DNA of 64,000 nucleotides, from NCBI GenBank assembly GCA_015178975.1, contig WHVD01000082.1, positions 124,001-188,000 on the forward strand. Direction: 5' to 3'. Position 1 is the stretch's first letter. Every line of letters begins with the position of its first letter. Below the pieces are notes generated by a model. It did not search any database. It saw only the letters and a program-made list of their open reading frames with translations, and had not been told where the DNA came from. The position numbers were made by a program, and so were the translations under genes. This document shows positions 22,632 to 61,580 of this stretch, piece after piece. This stretch comes from Hysterangium stoloniferum (lineage: Eukaryota; Basidiomycota; Agaricomycetes; Hysterangiales; Hysterangiaceae).

Positions 22632-24290
22632 ATGGATTGAACCCCTGAGTTTGATCGGGAGGAGGAGCGGAACCGACGTAGGGCACAATTGCAGATGACA
22701 TCACCATCTGACTGCCATCGATGTTCAGCTGTGACTCATTATGATGTACTCCCTCCTCAACTATTCCCCCATGTCTCTGTTGTTGCAGGTCCATCTGATG
22801 ATCCATTTGTGGCTGCTCCACAACCACCACAGCAAGGTGTGATTCCTCCTGCACCCCAAGTGGGGAGTAGTGCCATGGCAGCATTATGGGATCAGTATGC
22901 AAATTTGCCACCATTACAACCTCTTCAGCAGGGTTGTCAAGCAGCAAATGTATCTGTTCAACCACAGGCCCCAAATGCCCAATTAGCACCTGCAGATCAA
23001 TCTATCCAGCCTACAGTTGGTTCTGCTGCAGTAGCTGCTTTGGGTGCTTGGTTGGCTACTTTGCCACCATTACGACAACCTGCTGAACGGCATCATGCAC
23101 AGGCAAATGCAGCTGCTCAGATTCAGAATCATCCACCATTACAGCAACCTGCTCAACTGCAGCCACCAATTTTACAGTCAGCACCACATTCACAGCTTGG
23201 TCATCCATCTGTACCACTGCACCATGGTCATCCACCTATTAATGCAGTTCCACCACTTCAGGGACAAGTACCCATTTTTCAGTTGGCACTACCACAGCAT
23301 CAACATCCACCTGTTCATCCAGCAGCAAATGCACAGCAACAGCCACAGTTGGCCCCACCCCCAGCTATTCCTCCACCTCCAGTCATTCTCCCACTTGCCC
23401 CACCCCCAGCTATTGCCCCACCTGCAGTCAATGCCCCACCCCCAGCCATTCCATATCCTGCAGCCATCCCTCCACTCCTACTTCCTGTTGCACAATTACC
23501 CATTGGATGGCAGCCAGTTGTGGAGGCCAGGTTTCCAAGACATGATGTGGGACATATGAACATACAGTGTTCACACTGTGGAGCTTTACACTGGATAGAT
23601 GAACATCTGTCAGCTAGCTCTCAGACAACACCAAAGTTTGGCAAGTGTTGCAAGCAAGGAAAGATCATCCTTCCAATACTTGAATTAGTCCCTCATACCT
23701 TAAAGTCTCTTCTTGAGGATAATACAGACAATACCAAGGAATTTCACAAAAATCTTCATGCATATAATAATGCATTTGCATTTATATCACTTGGTGTCAA
23801 ATTGGATGAGTCTGTCTTGCAAGGTGGTTAGGGCCCATATGTTTTTAAAATACATGGTGGATTGTATCATGAGCAAGGTTCCTTAATCCCATACAGGGAA
23901 GAAGTATTACCCAGTTATGCTCAGCTTTACATCCATGATCCTGCACTGGCAGGTGAGGATGCACTGGGGAATGCATTGCAGATAAGGCAGAATCACAGGG
24001 AAAATCTAAATCTAAACAATCAAACCTTTTTTGACTTGCAGGACATGATGGAGCAATATAATCCTTTTATAGCACTCTATTGCCAGGCACATGAGTGATT
24101 GAGAACACAAGCAGAGACTCCAAGGTTACATGTTAGACTGAGCTACAAGGCTTTTACTGATCCCCAATGGTTCAACCTTCCAACCAGTGATGAACTTGCA
24201 GTCATTGTGCCTGGAGATGGTGATACAGGTCGGGGTGACCCAAGGGATATTATTGTTCAGGGAAGGGGGGGGGGCCTTCCATCGATTGCA
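22632..24290 (+). pseudogene. Helitron 1 N-terminal region
   Basis: The equivalent frame in Helitron 2 starts MDQTPGHNREEEQW; here codon 3 is TGA (22638). After an EEERNRRRAQLQMTSPSD segment comes a long Pro/Gln/Ala tract (residues about 40-290), then a cysteine/histidine module (MNIQCSHCGALHWIDEH ... KFGKCCKQGK, 23555-23665) conserved in both Helitrons and usual before the Helitron-like N domain. A TAG at 23829 and a TGA at 24097 interrupt SLGVKLDESVLQGG and the following YAQLYIHDPALAGEDAL. A G-run at 24263-24275 marks a frameshift into the Rep frame. Confidence 0.75.
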
Positions 24291-25896
24291 TGAAGGACAG
24301 GCCATTTGTACACCCCTTCATTATGTCATTCTCTTTCCCAGGGGTGAGCGTGGTTGGTCATGGGACATTCCCTATGCAAATAACAATTGGCAGCCTCAGG
24401 CTGCACGGCAGCATGAACAGGCTGAAGAGGAAGACAAAAGTCATAAGGTGACCCAATGTGAATATTATGCCTATCACCTATTTCTTAGAGCAAATGAAGC
24501 CAAAACCATTTTTTATGCACAAAAGCTATTCCAGCAGTATATCGTTGATGTGTGGGCAGTCACAGAACAGAGCAGATTGAAGTTTCTAAGTGAAAATCAA
24601 CCAAGGATACATGCAGAACTCTACAACCAGGTTGTTGATGCTTTTTCAAATGATGATATCAATCCCAATAGTATTGGTCAGAGGGTCATACTCCCTTCTT
24701 CATTTACTGGTGGTTCAAGGGATATGAGGCAAAGTCTGCAAAACTCTTTTGCAATCGCATGCAAGTATGGCAATGCCAGCTGCTTCATCACCATGACTGC
24801 TAATCCCAATTGGGAGGAGGTCACCCATGAATTGCTTCCTGGCCAGACCCCTGCTGATCACCCTGATTTGGTCTCACATGTCTTTGCTATCAAAAAGCCT
24901 AAAATGCTGAAAATGATTACAGAGGGCCATATCTTTGGTAAAACGGTAGCACATATCCATGTCATTGAATTCCAAAAGCAGGGTCTTCCACACATGCACT
25001 GTCTTATATGGTTTGAGAAGCAGTATAAGCCAAGGACACCTGCAGATGTCGATTCAATTATTTCTGCCTGTTTTCCAGATCCTGAAACACATCCCAGACT
25101 ATTTAATTTAGTAGGTCAACTCATGACCCATAGCCCCTGTGGTCTTCATCATCCAACTGCTGCCTGTATGGCCAATGGCACATGTGGTAAATTCTGCCCA
25201 AAGGATTGGTGTGAAGCCACCATTGTCAATCAGGAAGGCTATTTATTCTACCTTCATCCCAACAATGGAAGGGTTTATCAAACTCCCAAGTTCACATATG
25301 ACAACAGATATGTTGTTCCTTACTCTCCTATTTTGCTTCTCACCTTTGAGTGCCATATCAATGTCAAGTTGGTCTTTACCAATAGATCAATGAAGTACAT
25401 GCATAAATACTGCTACAAGGGGCCTGATCGCACAACTATGGAGGTTGGAAAGACACCAGATGAGATTAAACAGTATCTTGGTGCACGATATGTTAGTGCA
25501 CATGAGTCTGTCTGGCGATTAATGTGCAATGAACTCTACATCCAGGTTCCTGCAGTAATGGCACTTCATGTCCACCTCCCTGGGGAAAACACTGTCATTT
25601 TCAATGCTGATCAAGGTCCTGCTGAGGATTTACAAAGGGCAGAGTGTGCTGGCACAACTCTAATGGCTTATTTTGAAGCTAATGCCAAGGATATCATTGG
25701 CTACAATGGTCGCCATGCCAGGGACACATTGTATATGGATTTTCCTGAGTGTTTTACATTTGTAGCTAGGACTAAATCATGGAAGCCACGTCAAAGTGGT
25801 TTTTCCATAGGACACATCCATTTTGTCAATGCTGCCAGTGGTGAAAGATTTCACCTCCATACATTGCTCACTGTCGTCCAAGGTGATACCTCATAA
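24270..25896 (+). pseudogene. Helitron Rep (HUH nuclease) domain
   Basis: About 540 residues. Begins with CTPLHYVILFPRGERGW and the Helitron-like N domain (YYAYHLFLRAN ... FQQYIVDVWAVTEQSRLKF), then PSSFTGGSRDMRQSLQNSFA and FITMTANPNWEE. The HUH metal-binding motif is GLPHMHCLIWF (near 24985-25010). The paired-tyrosine region is KYMHKYCYKGPDR (near 25396-25430), with both catalytic-type tyrosines present. This domain nicks and joins DNA strands in rolling-circle transposition. The frame is open but leads to a stop at 25894 before the helicase, where a frameshift is required. Confidence 0.88.
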
Positions 25897-25919
25897 ATCT
25901 AAGGACTTTTCAGGGTGAG

Positions 25920-27713
25920 ACCCATTCCACATTTCAACAAGCCTGTGTTGCACATGGTTTGCTTGAAGATGACTGCCAGTGGAACATGTGTCTCAGAGAA
26001 GCCAGTCGCATACAGCCTGGCCTTCAACTTCACAGGTTGTTTATCATCATTTTGACCATGTCCTCCCCTGCACAACCCCAAGAACTCTGGAATGAGTTCA
26101 AAGAATTTATCTGTGATGATTTGGACTGGATCCTGAGGGTTACATATAACATTGACAATGTAGCACCTCACACAATTTATGACTTTGGTCTCTATCAGAT
26201 TGATAAAATCCTCTGCTATTCTGGAAAGTCTCTTTCACTCTATCCAACCATGCCACAAATCACTGAGAATTGGGATCAGTTCATTGGCAATCATCTCATT
26301 AGGGAGCAGAAGAATTATAATCTTGATCATGAACATGCCAGTGCCCAGGCCAATCTTGAAAAGTTCAATCCTGAACAACAAGTTGCTTTTAACACTATCA
26401 TCAAGGCAGTTGATGAGCAGCAGGAGGGCAAAATGTTCTTTGTCAATGGTCCAGGTGGCACTGGCAAGTCCCTTGTATGGAATACTCTTGCACACGCATG
26501 TCATGCCAAAGGCTACATTGTCCTTTGTGTCGCCTCATCTGGAATTGCATCAATGATTCTCAAAGGTGGTTGCACCTCTCATAGCATGTTTTCAATTCCT
26601 GTTCCCTGTGAGAAGGACTCCTCATGTCACATCAAAAAGGGCTCAGAAAAGGCAGAGCTCATGAAGCGAGTACGCCTCATCACAATGCAGTCATGTTTCA
26701 TATGTGAACAGTCGACCGAACTCTAAGGGATGTATTAGACAAAGATGCTCTCCCCTTTGGAGGCATTCCTGTTGCCTGGGGAGGTGACTTCCAGCAGACT
26801 TTGCCTGTTGTACAATGTGTCTCTAAAGAACAGATTATTGGTGAATGTATTCAAAAATCTCAACTCTGGAACCATGTCAAGGTACTTTTCTTGAAAAAGA
26901 ATATGTGGGCTGATCAGCATGATCCACACAGTGATCAGTTTGCTCAGTGGCTCTTAGATGTAGGCCATGGAAAGGATTTGCCTTTGGATCATACAATGGA
27001 TATCCCTCCTTATATGATCTGTGGTCCAGAAATGTCTGATCTAATTACTGAGATATATCCAGACATCCATGTGGATGGAGACCAAAGAAATTGGCAAGAT
27101 GGAGACTTATTAGACCATGCTATTCTGTGTCCTAGGAATTCAGATGTGGAAGAAATTAATTCAGAACTTCTGAATAGATTCCCTGGAGAGAGTTGGGTCT
27201 ACCACAGTGCTGACACTGCAGAGGTGACATGGAGGCAGAAGTCTATCCTGTGGAATATTTAAATAGTCTCAACTTTGGTGGAATTTCACCAAGTCGACTT
27301 GAGATGAAGCCAGGAGTACCTTTAATGCTACTACGGAATATAGATCCACAGATGGGACTTTTCAATGGTACAAAATTGCAACTATTGAAAATGGAAAATC
27401 ATTTTCTTTTGGTGCAGATCTTAACTGGACCATGTGCTGGGGAAGAGGCATTTATTTCAAGGATTAAAATCATTACAAATGATGATGAACTCCCTTTTAA
27501 ACTTCATCGGGTTCAGTTTCAATGACAAATAACAAGTCACAGGGACAATCTTTGAAATTAGTAGGATTAGATTTGAGAATGGCTATGTTTGGACATGGGC
27601 AATTGTATGTGGGACTTTCAAGGGGAAGAAGTTGGAATAGGGTTAAAATATTATTAGAGAAGGAGTCAAAGAGAACTGCAAATATAGTGTACAAAGATGT
27701 ATTATTAGATTGA
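25920..27713 (+). pseudogene. Helitron PIF1-type helicase
   Basis: Connects from TFQQACVAHGLLEDDCQWN in a shifted frame. Walker A is FVNGPGGTGKS (26440-26471), followed by CVASSGIASMILKGGCTSHS. Walker B and motif III follow in other frames (GGDFQQTLPV near 26785). The middle and C-terminal parts (HVDGDQRNWQDGD, 27070; KPGVPLMLLRNIDPQMGLFNG, 27305) and the end (MTNNKSQGQSLKLVGLDL ... GQLYVGLSRGR, 27522-27645) are all visible. At least three frameshifts or stops (26726, 27262, 27525) inactivate it. The helicase unwinds donor DNA during Helitron transposition. Confidence 0.85.
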
Positions 27714-46362: not shown

Positions 46363-46460
46363 CATTTGAAACTTAACTATAAAATAAGATATTCAGAGAA
46401 TATCTTAATTGAAATATATCAAGGGAAACATAGAAAAATTACAGAGAAATGTTAAAAGGC

Positions 46461-46777
46461 CAGGGAAGAGAAATGTAAGCCAGGGAAGAGAAATGTAAGC
46501 CAGGGAAGAGAAATGTAAGCCAGGGAAGAGAAATGTAAGCCAGGGAAGAGAAATGTAAGCCAGGGAAGAGAAATGTAAGCCAGGGAAGAGAAATGTAAGC
46601 CAGGGAAGAGAAATGTAAGCCAGGGAAGAGAAATGTAAGCCAGGGAAGAGAAATGTAAGCCAGGGAAGAGAAATGTAAGCCAGGGAAGAGAAATGTAAGC
46701 CAGGGAAGAGAAATGTAAGCCAGGGAAGAGAAATGTAAGCCAGGGAAGAGAAATGTAAGCCAGGGAAGAGAAATGTA
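46461..46777. repeat. Perfect 20-bp tandem array
   Basis: Fifteen identical copies of CAGGGAAGAGAAATGTAAGC plus 17 bases of a sixteenth. No variant units, so it was recently homogenised or expanded. Long frames through it are artefacts. Confidence 0.97.
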
Positions 46778-53705: not shown

Positions 53706-55689
53706 AATGTTGCCCATGAAGGGCATCTTCTGCCACATAAATGGATTCATGTATCAACATATGGCATTGTCTTCCTTGGTACACCTCACCAAGGCACAGA
53801 CATAGTGCCCAAACTGGTTTCGTTGTGCAGCCAGCCAAATTGTAATATCTTGTTAAAGCATTTAACTACTCACTCTGAGCTATTACAGCAACAAATATCT
53901 GATTTTAATCCCATCACTGCCCAATTTCATATGAAATTTTTCTATGAAACTTTACCTACTACTCTCCCTGGTTGTATTTCTGAGACCATGAGTTTAGGGA
54001 TTCTGATAGGCCTTATGACCATGTTAAATAATAGTATGCATCCAGATTGTTCCCAAAGCATCTGCTGTGGTCCCTGGGACTGTCAACATTGAACCAATAG
54101 GATCACATTGGGTTGTCCAGATTTCAGTCTGTTGATGATAATGATTTCAAGTCTCTGTTGTCTGCTGTACAAGACATGGTTAAGAAAGCCTTAGTCATGG
54201 TTTATGACCAATGGATTAAATTTAATTAACAAAGTGGTGTGTATGTTGATATGAATGGATATACATAGGCTAACATTATTGAGCAGAGGATACCTCCAAG
54301 AAATTTATATACATGTCTAAGCACCGTCCAAGTCCAAGGTTTGTGGGACAGGAGAAATATCTTATGAGACTTGGACAATTTTTTGCCCCTGAAAACTCCC
54401 TCTCAGCATGGAATCATTTCCTTTTGTATGGAATGGGAGGAGTTGGGAAAACTCAGATTTGTTTGAAATTCATTGAAGAGATGCTTGGCAATGACTAGTA
54501 AGTTACTAATACTGTGATTATTCTCATTAGCACTCACAGGAAAGTATTAAGTAACTTTTGGAACATTTTCTGGATAGATAGTACAAACACAGAAACTCTG
54601 ACAAGTGGCTTTTTAAATATTGCTGAAGATCCTGAAGCCAAATCCAAGGGCATTGAAAAGTCTCCAGAGGCTGTTTTGAGGTGGCTTACAGCCAATCAGA
54701 AGAAATATCTCATCATCTTTGACAATGCTGATGGGATGGGTGGAATGGTTAAAGACTATTTGCAACAGACTTGACAGATTCATGTATAGATCACTAGCTG
54801 TAATCTTGGACTGGCCAGCCATGTCACAGACTCACTGCAGGTTCTTCCAATGGAGAGTGATCAAGCACTGACTCTCCTTCAAACTGCAGCTAAACTTGAC
54901 AATAAATCAAATACTAATATTTATAAATTGTCAGAGAAGATTGTTGCCAAACTTGGATTCTTACCACTTGTAATAGATATTGCTGGGGCAGCCATCTCAA
55001 CTGGACTCTGTGAAGTGACAGAGTATCTAACAATTCAAGAAAAATATTACAAACATTTTTTTGATACAGACAACCCCTCCATGAAAGGGGCACTAGGATA
55101 TAATCACACAGTTTATAGTACTTTAAAACTGTCATATGATCTGATTGAAAAGAAGGCCACATTGTCAACAAGTGCACAAGATGCATTGTTCATATTGAAA
55201 GTTTTGGGATTCTTTCATCACCAAAACATCATGGAAAGCATCTTCAAACGAGCTGCAGAATTCCCACCAGCAAATACATATGATGGGAGCTTACAAACCA
55301 GATGTAATAGTGATGGACAGTGGGAAGGTCTACCATTCAGATTAGCCATGCAAGTCCTCTGTGATTACTCACTTCTCTCCAGAAACCCTGCAACACAATA
55401 TTCATGTTCATGGTCAATGCACCCAGTAATTCATGTCTGGGTAAGAGATCATATACTAGGTATCAATGATATCCCTTATTATCATGCATCCAGAGCATTA
55501 ATAGTCAGCAGTATCAATGGATCTGAAACAATGAATGTCATATTGTTCCAGTGAGATCTTCTGCCTCATGTTGTTACAAATCATGCTATGGCTAATGGAA
55601 GGAAAAAGGGATATTATGATGATCTGTCTGAGAGGTTTGCCCAAATATATGAACAGGCTGGTATATGGTCAGATATGGAAGAACTGTGT

Positions 55690-56310
55690 GTGCAGGTACT
55701 GGAGGCCAGGGAGCAAATTCTAGGCACTGAACACCCAGATACTCTGAGAGCAAAGGCCAAGTTGGCTGTCACATATGGTCAGGGAGATGGACTGATGCAG
55801 AACAACTGGAGGTGCAAGTGCTGGAGGCTAGGGAGCAGATCCTAGCACAGAACACCAAGAGACTCTGACAGCCAGGGCCAATTTGGCTATCACATATGAT
55901 CATCTGGGCAGATATACTGAGGCAGAACAACTGCAGGTGCAGATGCTGGAAGCCAGGGAGCAGATCCTAGGCACAGAACACCGAGTGACTCTGACAGCCA
56001 GGGCCCAGTTGGCTATCACATATGCTCATCTGGGCAGATACATTGAGGCAGAACAACTGCAGGTGCAGGTGCTGGAGGCCAAGGAGCATATCCTAGGCAC
56101 TGAACACCCAGAGACTCTGGGAGCAAGGGCTACCTTGGCTGTCACGTATGCTCATCTTGGCAGATACACTGAAGCAGAACAACTGCAGGTGCAGGTGCTG
56201 GAGGCCAGTGAGCAGAGCCTAGGCACTGAACACCCAGAGACTCTGGGAGCAAGGGCTAACTTGGCTGCAACATATGATCATCTGGGGAGATGGACTGATG
56301 CAGAACTATT
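55690..56310 (+). repeat. Coding TPR repeat array (126-bp units)
   Basis: About five 126-bp units, each encoding a 42-residue TPR. Units agree closely (EQLQVQVLEA, EQILGTEHPETL), as in fungal NLRs whose repeats are kept similar by recombination. A one-base loss near 55840 breaks the frame. Confidence 0.85.
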
Positions 56311-60030: not shown

Positions 60031-60973
60031 TGTTATGATGAGAATTCCTGCCGGACTCCAGGCACTAACTTATATGCGCATCCTATATGCACCAATTGTC
60101 AGTTTACTGGAATTCCTGCCGGACTCCATACATCAGACTTGTCCATGTTTGATTTCGTTACTTCATGTATCAGTCACTGGAATACCTGCTGGACTCCACC
60201 TGTTTATGTCTGACTCTGTCCCACGCATCAGTCACCAGACCCCACTCAGAAAACCCATCATCCCTCTAACTGAGCCCCATTCCCATTATAGTCAAATGAC
60301 CTGTCATGATTCAGACTCCGCTCCCACTTTGTTCCCATTATGGTTTTATGACCTGTCACGATTCGGACTCCGCTTCATTACGTCCCGTTCCTAACACCAA
60401 GTTTGGTGTTTACTTATCTTGTTTTATGTTTGCTAGTTTCGTTTTCATTATTACTGGATTTGGTATGTTATTCATTCCACAGTCTATATAGTCTGGCAGA
60501 TGTTGTACATACAATCCAGTCAGAAAATCAGCTTAGATTCTCCCCAGTAATCTTAGTATATTTTCCACTCTAAACTCCTCTTTGAATCACACCGCTCTTA
60601 CTAGTCAGAGCCCATGGGCTCCAATGCATCTATCACTCAATGTCTGACTTATCTATCTCAACTCCCCGACCTCTCAAACCACAACCTCTCAAACCACAAC
60701 CTCTTGACCCACAACCTCTCGACCCATGAACTCCACCTGGACTCCCTGGGATTCCCATCCACCCATTTGAAATTGGACAACACAATCTCGCAAGGGTGCA
60801 GCCTATAAGGTGAAGGCAATGTTAGAAATGGGAAAATGCAATATCTATATGTGACAGACTGTTATAAGACCCAGGCTTGCCATCAGTTATATAAGCTGTT
60901 ATAAGAGCACAAGTTGGCATCACAAGTCCTTATATATATGTATATATAATCCATCATATAATACTAGACTATA

Positions 60974-61048
60974 GGTCCAGTAGCTCAGTGGTTAAGAGCA
61001 CCTGCATATAAAGCCAGGAGGTCCTTGGTTCAATCCCAGGCTGGGTCA
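60974..61048 (+). tRNA. tRNA-like sequence in left TRIM LTR
   Basis: 75 bases fold as a cloverleaf. Acceptor GGTCCAG/CTGGGTC pairs 7 of 7 with two G-U pairs. D arm GCTC/GAGC. T arm CTTGG-TTCAATC-CCAGG. Box A TAGCTCAGTGG and box B GGTTCAATCCC are intact. The anticodon arm has one base more than standard (CCTG...CAGG closing a 10-base loop), so the anticodon is not assignable. A tRNA-derived promoter element rather than a working tRNA is more likely. Confidence 0.65.
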
Positions 61049-61070
61049 ATTCTTTTCTATGCCTTTAACA

Positions 61071-61082
61071 GGTTATGGGCCC
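61071..61082 (+). other. TRIM primer-binding site
   Basis: GGTTATGGGCCC directly abuts the left LTR, matching the copia-type sites at 56504 and 39826. Confidence 0.75.
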
Positions 61083-61128
61083 CGTGAGCTTGGTGCGCTG
61101 CATAGGGTATAGACTAGATATTGATTTC

Positions 61129-61136
61129 AGGGGAAG
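61129..61136 (+). other. TRIM polypurine tract
   Basis: AGGGGAAG directly before the right LTR, the expected plus-strand primer. Confidence 0.7.
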
Positions 61137-61290
61137 TGTTAGAAATGGGAAAATGCAATATCTATATGTGACAGACTGTTATAAGACCCAGGCTTGCCAT
61201 CAGTTATATAAGCTGTTATAAGAGCACAAGTTGGCATCACAAGTCCTTATATATATGTATATATAATCCATCATATAATACTAGACTATA

Positions 61291-61365
61291 GGTCCAGTAG
61301 CTCAGTGGTTAAGAGCACCTGCATATAAAGCCAGGAGGTCCTTGGTTCAATCCCAGGCTGGGTCA
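61291..61365 (+). tRNA. tRNA-like sequence in right TRIM LTR
   Basis: Identical to the copy at 60974-61048, as part of the duplicated LTR. Confidence 0.65.
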
Positions 61366-61580
61366 ATTCTTTTCTATGCCTTTAACAGGCAAGTCCTACC
61401 GGATTTCCCACAGGTTTCCCCAGAAACCCTCTGTGTACGCACCCTTAACACACACAAGAAATCCAATACAAATTATTTTCTCTATTAATAGAATATTTAA
61501 CTCCTTGTTATCTATTAATAGTTACAAATAAGCATAAAAGAAACCAAAGCTTTATATCAAGTCTCTGCTAAGCTACTGTG

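Follow-up and report, generated by a model that had tools for sequence, protein, structure and literature searches.

How does an element that encodes nothing come to be copied, and whose machinery copies it? The question is raised by a 568-bp retrotransposon lying in the window, that is, the whole 64,000-nucleotide stretch of Hysterangium stoloniferum DNA that was analysed here. The element consists of a 251-bp LTR, a 66-bp interior and a second 251-bp LTR; the original prediction had described it as a TRIM without genes, with LTRs identical at 251 of 251 positions and a GGCAA target-site duplication (TSD), and all of this was confirmed, the longest stop-to-stop frame wholly within the element being 50 codons. 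The interior had been said to be made of a primer-binding site (PBS) and a polypurine tract (PPT): both are present, but ~44 of its 66 bp belong to neither. The insertion sits in a dispersed host repeat, a paralogous copy of which at C256 (L108) represents the empty site, and the window flanks, once joined, align across the C256 junction with a single target copy (77% identity, 12% gaps, 336 columns). The features are collected in Table 1, where the limits of boxes A and B in the 5′ LTR are those that we take them to have.

Table 1. Features of the element and its insertion site (positions are those of the window)
Feature	Position	Strand	Basis or remark
Target-site duplication, left copy, GGCAA	60815..60819	.	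sequence inspection; empty-site paralog
5′ LTR, 251 bp, TGTTA...TAACA	60820..61070	+	LTR comparison
TATA-rich palindromic stretch, candidate TATA element	60930..60949, again 61247-61266	+	25-44 nt upstream of the tRNA-like unit
tRNA-like unit, 5′ LTR	60974..61048	+	RF00005, 48.6 bits; ARAGORN Tyr-ATA
Box A, TAGCTCAGTGGT	60981..60992	+	invariant across 83 LTRs
Box B, TTGGTTCAATC	61025..61035	+	invariant across 83 LTRs
TTTT run, 5′ LTR, weak Pol III terminator candidate	61053..61056	+	full template would need read-through
Interior, 66 bp, type A	61071..61136	+	between the LTRs
Primer-binding site, GGTTATGGGCCCCG	61071..61084	+	14/14 complement of the tRNA-Met(cat) anticodon arm, L127 (C112)
Polypurine tract, AGGGGAAG	61129..61136	+	sequence, ahead of the 3′ LTR
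3′ LTR, 251 bp	61137..61387	+	LTR comparison; same as the 5′ LTR at 251/251
tRNA-like unit, 3′ LTR	61291..61365	+	RF00005, 48.6 bits
TTTT run, 3′ LTR	61370..61373	+	predicted 3′ end of the Pol III template RNA
Target-site duplication, right copy, GGCAA	61388..61392	.	sequence inspection; empty-site paralog

Compared with Kojima's published description (PMC10886601), the element fits a Helenus-type TRIM, a kind already described in 2024. As portrayed there, Helenus elements are TRIMs of 311-1263 bp whose LTRs hold a tRNA-derived sequence and which occur in Pucciniales, some Agaricomycetes, animals and Selaginella; those of fungi have 5-bp TSDs, mostly a PBS matching the iMet anticodon loop, and probably a Copia helper (PMC10886601). 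The features in common with that description are several: (i) two LTRs, no coding capacity and a size, 568 bp, that falls in the stated range; (ii) a tRNA-like unit with boxes A and B in both LTRs; (iii) a short interior, with an iMet anticodon PBS right after the 5′ LTR and a PPT before the 3′ LTR; (iv) a 5-bp TSD, several families per genome and Copia as the presumed helper; and (v) tandem arrays, which Kojima noted for LTR-11_DR (PMC10886601). A fungal TRIM with a tRNA module had been presented as new; that claim has to be given up, as Helenus has been reported in fungi, in animals and in one plant (PMC10886601). Our search for further literature on Helenus found Kojima 2024 alone. The second family present in this genome, Helenus-2, combines a 128-bp LTR bearing an Ile-TAT-like unit with an interior of 155 bp and the same PBS as the first, and was seen at two loci, L114 (C1; TSD AAACC) and L112 (C16; TSD TCGTG), one of which is a three-LTR array.

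The TRIM Cassandra resembles the element in its Pol III-type LTR promoter, very short interior and LTR-sharing tandem arrays, but is a plant element with a 5S rRNA module (PMC7215508), and according to Kojima no helper family is indicated for it (PMC10886601). Membership in Cassandra is out, Rfam at gathering scores giving only two tRNA matches in the window and no 5S rRNA; a tRNA-derived SINE is out as well, the element having two identical LTRs, a PBS, a PPT and a 5-bp TSD.

The element has many relatives in its own genome (111 Mb, 554 contigs). A similarity search returned at least 97 matches, from 40 of the 364 candidates scored, so that it is no lone copy; the LTR structure, TSD, empty site and copy number likewise dispose of a tRNA gene duplicated by chance, the other trivial reading that the original prediction had entertained. 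Genome-wide pattern searches gave 224 LTR starts (up to 3 mismatches; reversed pattern, 0) and 72 interiors, namely 30 of type A and 40 of type B at up to 3 mismatches and 2 of type B from the junction search only, with reversed controls of 0 and each interior within an array counted singly. Among 27 distinct elements or arrays at loci L001-L030 (overlapping loci counted once, and L028, whose array runs beyond the locus, left out), 18 have a perfect 5-bp TSD; those lacking one are L003 and L004, which are copies of one tandem segment, L011, L016, L017, L024, L027 (truncated), L029 and L030. Tandem arrays of 4 or 5 LTRs lie under one TSD (L013/L021 and L025/L026), and three Helenus copies on C543 (266621, 272035 and 277449) recur at intervals of exactly 5414 bp, a tandem segment about as long as a Copia, and each is adjoined by Copia LTR sequence.

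Very recent movement had been read from the identical LTRs, and recent movement is supported by the genome. Both LTRs and the interior of a copy at C137 (L002) are identical to those of the window element, and its TSD, AATTG, is different; this is a better sign of recency than LTR identity, which at 0 differences in 251 positions by itself bounds the age to less than ~5.7 My (95%) at the fungal substitution rate of 1.05e-9 quoted in PMC5689174. In 16 LTR pairs compared, eight show no substitution (L015 among them, with a 2-base gap) and the others 1-6.

What, then, would transcribe the element? The 75-base tRNA-like unit had been predicted to form a cloverleaf. Its covariance match is clear (Table 1), the gathering score of RF00005 being 29 and both window matches having an E of 2.4e-07; however, the isolated 75 nt fold no better than shuffles (z -0.30) and their minimum-free-energy structure is not a cloverleaf, so that the cloverleaf rests on the covariance model. 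Among 20 loci fetched out of 62 tRNA matches, the unit is most like a tRNA-Cys, over 28 nt at 89%. That both boxes are intact, as predicted, holds well beyond the window: in 83 distinct complete LTRs, taken non-randomly from fetched loci that scored best or were picked by hand, the mean minority frequency falls from 0.0157 in U3 positions 1-110 to 0.0018 across the unit, where boxes A and B themselves show 0, and is 0.0060 over the 22 bases that follow. The unit is the least variable of the LTR regions as delimited in our analysis, and just 4 of the 251 circular 75-bp placements, the unit itself counted, are as low in variation. Variants common to at least 4 copies occupy 11 of the 154 upstream positions but none of the unit's 75 (Fisher p 0.018, a soft value, as the test assumes independent sites although the LTRs are related, and the 4-copy cut was picked after the counts), while rarer variants do not differ (20 of 154 against 7 of 75, p 0.52); the 22 bases downstream, with 0 shared variants and 6 rarer ones, were left out of this test. 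This pattern suggests that the unit has been protected during lineage replication, not that it mutates less.

From the invariance of the two boxes in the 83 LTRs we infer that Pol III transcribes the element; this sequence constraint is also what speaks for placing it among the Pol III-transcribed TRIMs (TRIMp3), which are defined by a functional Pol III promoter. A different reading takes the tRNA-like unit for a relic and has Pol II start from the TATA-rich U3, where a TATA-rich stretch does lie 25-44 nt upstream of the unit (Table 1); moreover, the partner Copia discussed below must presumably be a Pol II element. Nevertheless, we regard this reading as unlikely, given the contrast in variability between the unit and U3 1-110, the unchanging boxes, and the fact that Helenus-2, with a different LTR, also bears a tRNA-like unit. 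That the unit yields a working tRNA, so that the element spreads tRNA genes, agrees with the Rfam score of 48.6 bits but is scarcely credible in view of the poor fold of the isolated RNA and of an anticodon, ATA, at odds with the best local likeness to tRNA-Cys, such isotype conflict being a mark of non-functionality in Kojima's account (PMC10886601).

Transcription by Pol III across the whole element would have to pass the T4 in the 5′ LTR. This T4 seems to stand at the weak end of terminators, yet it might terminate, because T4 is the first T run downstream in 6 of 28 tRNA predictions from 20 fetched loci, the other 22 having at least five Ts; the tally drops two over-long predictions, double-counts some genes in overlapping loci and includes many near-identical Lys copies. 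Read-through is thus an assumption of our scheme. As a separate observation, numerous intron-containing predictions that resemble tRNA-Lys(CTT) form loose clusters at C112:985000-1220000 (L069, L074-L076, L080), and others lie on C68 and C410; several are ~400-430 bp apart, and they perhaps represent an expanded tRNA or a SINE-like repeat.

As for priming, the original prediction had allowed that the tRNA-like fold might help. The PBS points elsewhere: all 14 of its nt are complementary to the anticodon arm of a tRNA-Met(cat) of this genome, which we read from its sequence as the initiator tRNA, whereas the longest exact complement between the tRNA-like unit and the first 20 interior bases is just 6 nt. 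The tRNA-Met was found by a gapped pattern search with 15 matches (reversed control 4), four of them being GGGGCCCATAACCCC, one of which was inspected.

The same PBS leads to a candidate source of the missing proteins. A Copia family and the element have 21 bp in common across the LTR end and PBS, and similar PPTs. The LTR-end/PBS pattern has 1126 matches at up to 2 mismatches (reversed control 4), and exact matches lie ~2.9-3.2 kb upstream of RVT_2 in at least 8 Copia elements, paired by eye among the matches listed. Five of these 8 copies have open frames of 1,384-1,386 aa, and in the remaining three the frames span 836-1,063 aa; a Copia LTR begins six of the elements, a Helenus LTR the other two. 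In five whole examples the Copia LTR measures 338-349 bp, a sixth being shortened by a head-to-head neighbour, the PBS continues as GGTTATGGGCCCCGCGCTC, and the PPT is ATCAGGGGGGTC at the place of the Helenus one; canonical TSDs flank 4 of the 4 copies checked (CTGTA, CCAAC, CCTGC and GGAAC). This RVT_2 family is likely to be the autonomous partner that supplies the element's machinery.

A direct pointer to this family comes from insertions that are part Copia and part Helenus. A Copia LTR stands ahead of a Helenus interior at 17 junctions, 7 with type A and 10 with type B interiors (reversed control, 0 each). Twelve are simple hybrids, inspected at both ends, four are composites (C2, C259, C35:1081k and C534:341k), and one (C441:338.6k) stays outside the tally. 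Perfect 5-bp TSDs flank nine of the 12 simple hybrids (ACGCG, CCTGG, TTACA, GATTT, GGTTG, ATCCA, TTTAT, AAAGA and CTGTC), a rate like that of ordinary Helenus copies (18/27); when the flanks of different hybrids were paired, 0 of 132 pairings agreed by chance. The CTGTC of the C441 hybrid lies in a CAGCTGTC repeat. The three simple hybrids without a TSD are C68, C514:299k and C543:251k, the last with an altered right LTR end and an uncertain flank. An assembly artefact is disfavoured by the TSDs kept in 9 of 12. The Copia LTR of the nine TSD-bearing hybrids is whole, with U3, in six and internally deleted in L100, and at C109 and C441 it was inspected at its start and end only. No two of the six whole LTRs are alike, so the six are separate events; and since perfect TSDs flank unlike LTRs, the nine integrated as hybrids, the joining having preceded integration.

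The converse arrangement, a Helenus LTR with a Copia body, occurs at six junctions (reversed control 0): (i) C35:906370, with AGAGA on both sides, within AG-rich repeats; (ii) C2, a three-LTR composite with TTTTT on both sides; (iii) C14:166k, nested within another Copia and with no TSD of its own; (iv, v) C35:1081k and C259, composites whose far ends were not found; and (vi) C256, considered below. Both kinds of junction are present at C2, C259 and C35:1081k. Among TSD-bearing hybrids the direction is uneven, nine with a Copia LTR and Helenus interior versus one converse.

Our overall reading, which we hold to be probable, is that the element, a Helenus-type TRIM whose LTRs carry a Pol III promoter derived from a tRNA, is mobilised in trans by a Copia family resident in this genome, through shared particles. 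In this scheme, whose co-packaging, read-through and priming are proposed, Pol III would start near the tRNA-like unit of the 5′ LTR, pass the weak T4 and end at the T4 of the 3′ LTR, dividing the LTR into a U3 of ~154 nt, an R of ~83 nt and a U5 of ~14 nt. The Helenus RNA would enter Copia particles, with both RNAs in one particle, and initiator tRNA-Met, or its 5′ half, would prime at the PBS. Since the PBS is common to both templates, Copia plus-strand strong-stop DNA (U3-R-U5-PBS) could sometimes anneal to the PBS end of the Helenus minus-strand DNA, and the outcome would be insertions with a Copia LTR, a Helenus interior and a Helenus LTR, the converse being rare. The end of plus-strand strong-stop DNA lies in the PBS, and a transfer of this DNA to the minus strand of the other template would yield exactly the hybrid structures observed, which makes it the best explanation of them; a minus-strand jump from the PBS is disfavoured, because it brings only U5 and R while the whole hybrids carry U3. 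The uneven direction is not predicted by strong-stop transfer by itself. With rather less assurance, we lean towards the more specific proposition that particle sharing between the Pol III-transcribed TRIM and the Pol II-transcribed Copia is close enough for roughly an eighth of the Helenus interiors (9/72) to stand in hybrid insertions, with the Copia's LTR on the 5′ side and their own on the 3′ side, made by strong-stop transfer between molecules at the iMet PBS.

The main competitor places the exchange in the nucleus: still unintegrated, the free cDNAs of Helenus and Copia would recombine there where they share 21 bp. Such recombination would yield the identical junction and TSDs, and joining of cDNAs is suggested by the one-TSD tandem arrays (L013/L021 and L025/L026). 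However, Helenus-2 has 26 bp in common with the same Copia, as against 21, and yet its junctions with that Copia number 0 genome-wide at up to 3 mismatches, a comparison that is blind to Helenus-2 abundance and cDNA level. Nuclear recombination, which we think improbable as the general source of the hybrids, would in any case still need both cDNAs to be present together.

At least once, very probably, a Helenus and a Copia that had already integrated did recombine at the same 21 bp. The converse hybrid at C256 (L107, L109) has the flanks CTTCT/AGTTT, and the hybrid at C68 (L096) has AGTTT/CTTCT; their Copia LTRs are identical (327/327), a length shared by 0 of 9 other Copia LTRs compared, and their Helenus LTRs differ at 5 of 251 positions, comparable to some ordinary pairs. 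Given the swapped TSDs and the identical Copia LTRs, C256 and C68 are very probably the products of one later reciprocal Helenus x Copia crossover, both retained, and thus a retrotransposon-mediated rearrangement with both products present. The three-LTR composites at C2, C259 and C35:1081k and the Copia-joined C534:341k also fit circle or ectopic recombination. That every hybrid arose in this way, by contrast, is very unlikely: an ectopic crossover joins two target sites, with loss of the TSD, whereas 9 of the 12 simple hybrids retain perfect ones.

If strong-stop transfer within shared particles is indeed at work, insertions with unlike LTRs naturally preserve a record of the helper by which each TRIM is packaged, and in the hybrids a Pol III element comes to lie downstream of a Pol II promoter. 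Hybrids with TSDs can be searched for in any genome assembly and indicate the helper directly, in contrast to the indirect inference available so far for Helenus. They further suggest at which step of reverse transcription the templates become mixed, and with them it becomes possible to test, in a single fungus, whether Pol III templates an LTR element.

Related exchanges have been described elsewhere. LTR swapping in soybean, the subject of work by Du et al. in 2010, is said to be an exchange of LTRs between autonomous and non-autonomous partners, as here, but in replicating lineages, unlike the single insertions with unlike LTRs found here. The Triticeae template-switching complexes are likewise TSD-flanked composite LTR elements for which co-packaged RNAs were invoked (Sabot and Schulman 2007, PMC1950507); they have three LTRs, the outer ones alike, with a switch at R, whereas the present hybrids have two unlike LTRs, join at the PBS and combine a TRIM with its presumed helper. 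In the Onsen recombinants, two co-packaged RNAs also recombine during reverse transcription, though within one family, and in that account the LTR events mostly fit a switch at R and others lie in coding sequence (PMC5668417). No published TRIM carrying its helper's 5′ LTR was found by title or abstract, a weak negative, as subscription literature lay mostly outside the search. The tRNA-carrying fungal TRIM itself is already known, and what is new is the hybrid insertions pointing to the helper. Kojima's inference of a helper, as set out in PMC10886601, drew on PBS similarity and one Copia from another species; here the common PBS and the TSD-bearing hybrids point to a Copia of the same genome, from which we infer mobilisation.

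The window holds other repeats as well. At 46459-46777 a unit of 20 bp recurs 15.9 times with 100% matches and is probably a young satellite. A 126-bp unit repeated 4.9 times (55690-56306; 86% matches) adjoins a 254-aa open frame (54790-55554) for which Pfam gave no match and the protein search no homologue. A gag-like ORF had 6 matches in the protein search, the best being an unnamed protein and the second-best Crucibulum laeve at 34%. Pfam, run on four window ORFs, otherwise gave weaker matches under the cut-off only, apart from those of a Helitron at 24142-26726, where Helitron_like_N is followed by a PIF1 helicase frame, both over the curated cut-off; proline-rich frames of similar look lie at 22641 and 30250.
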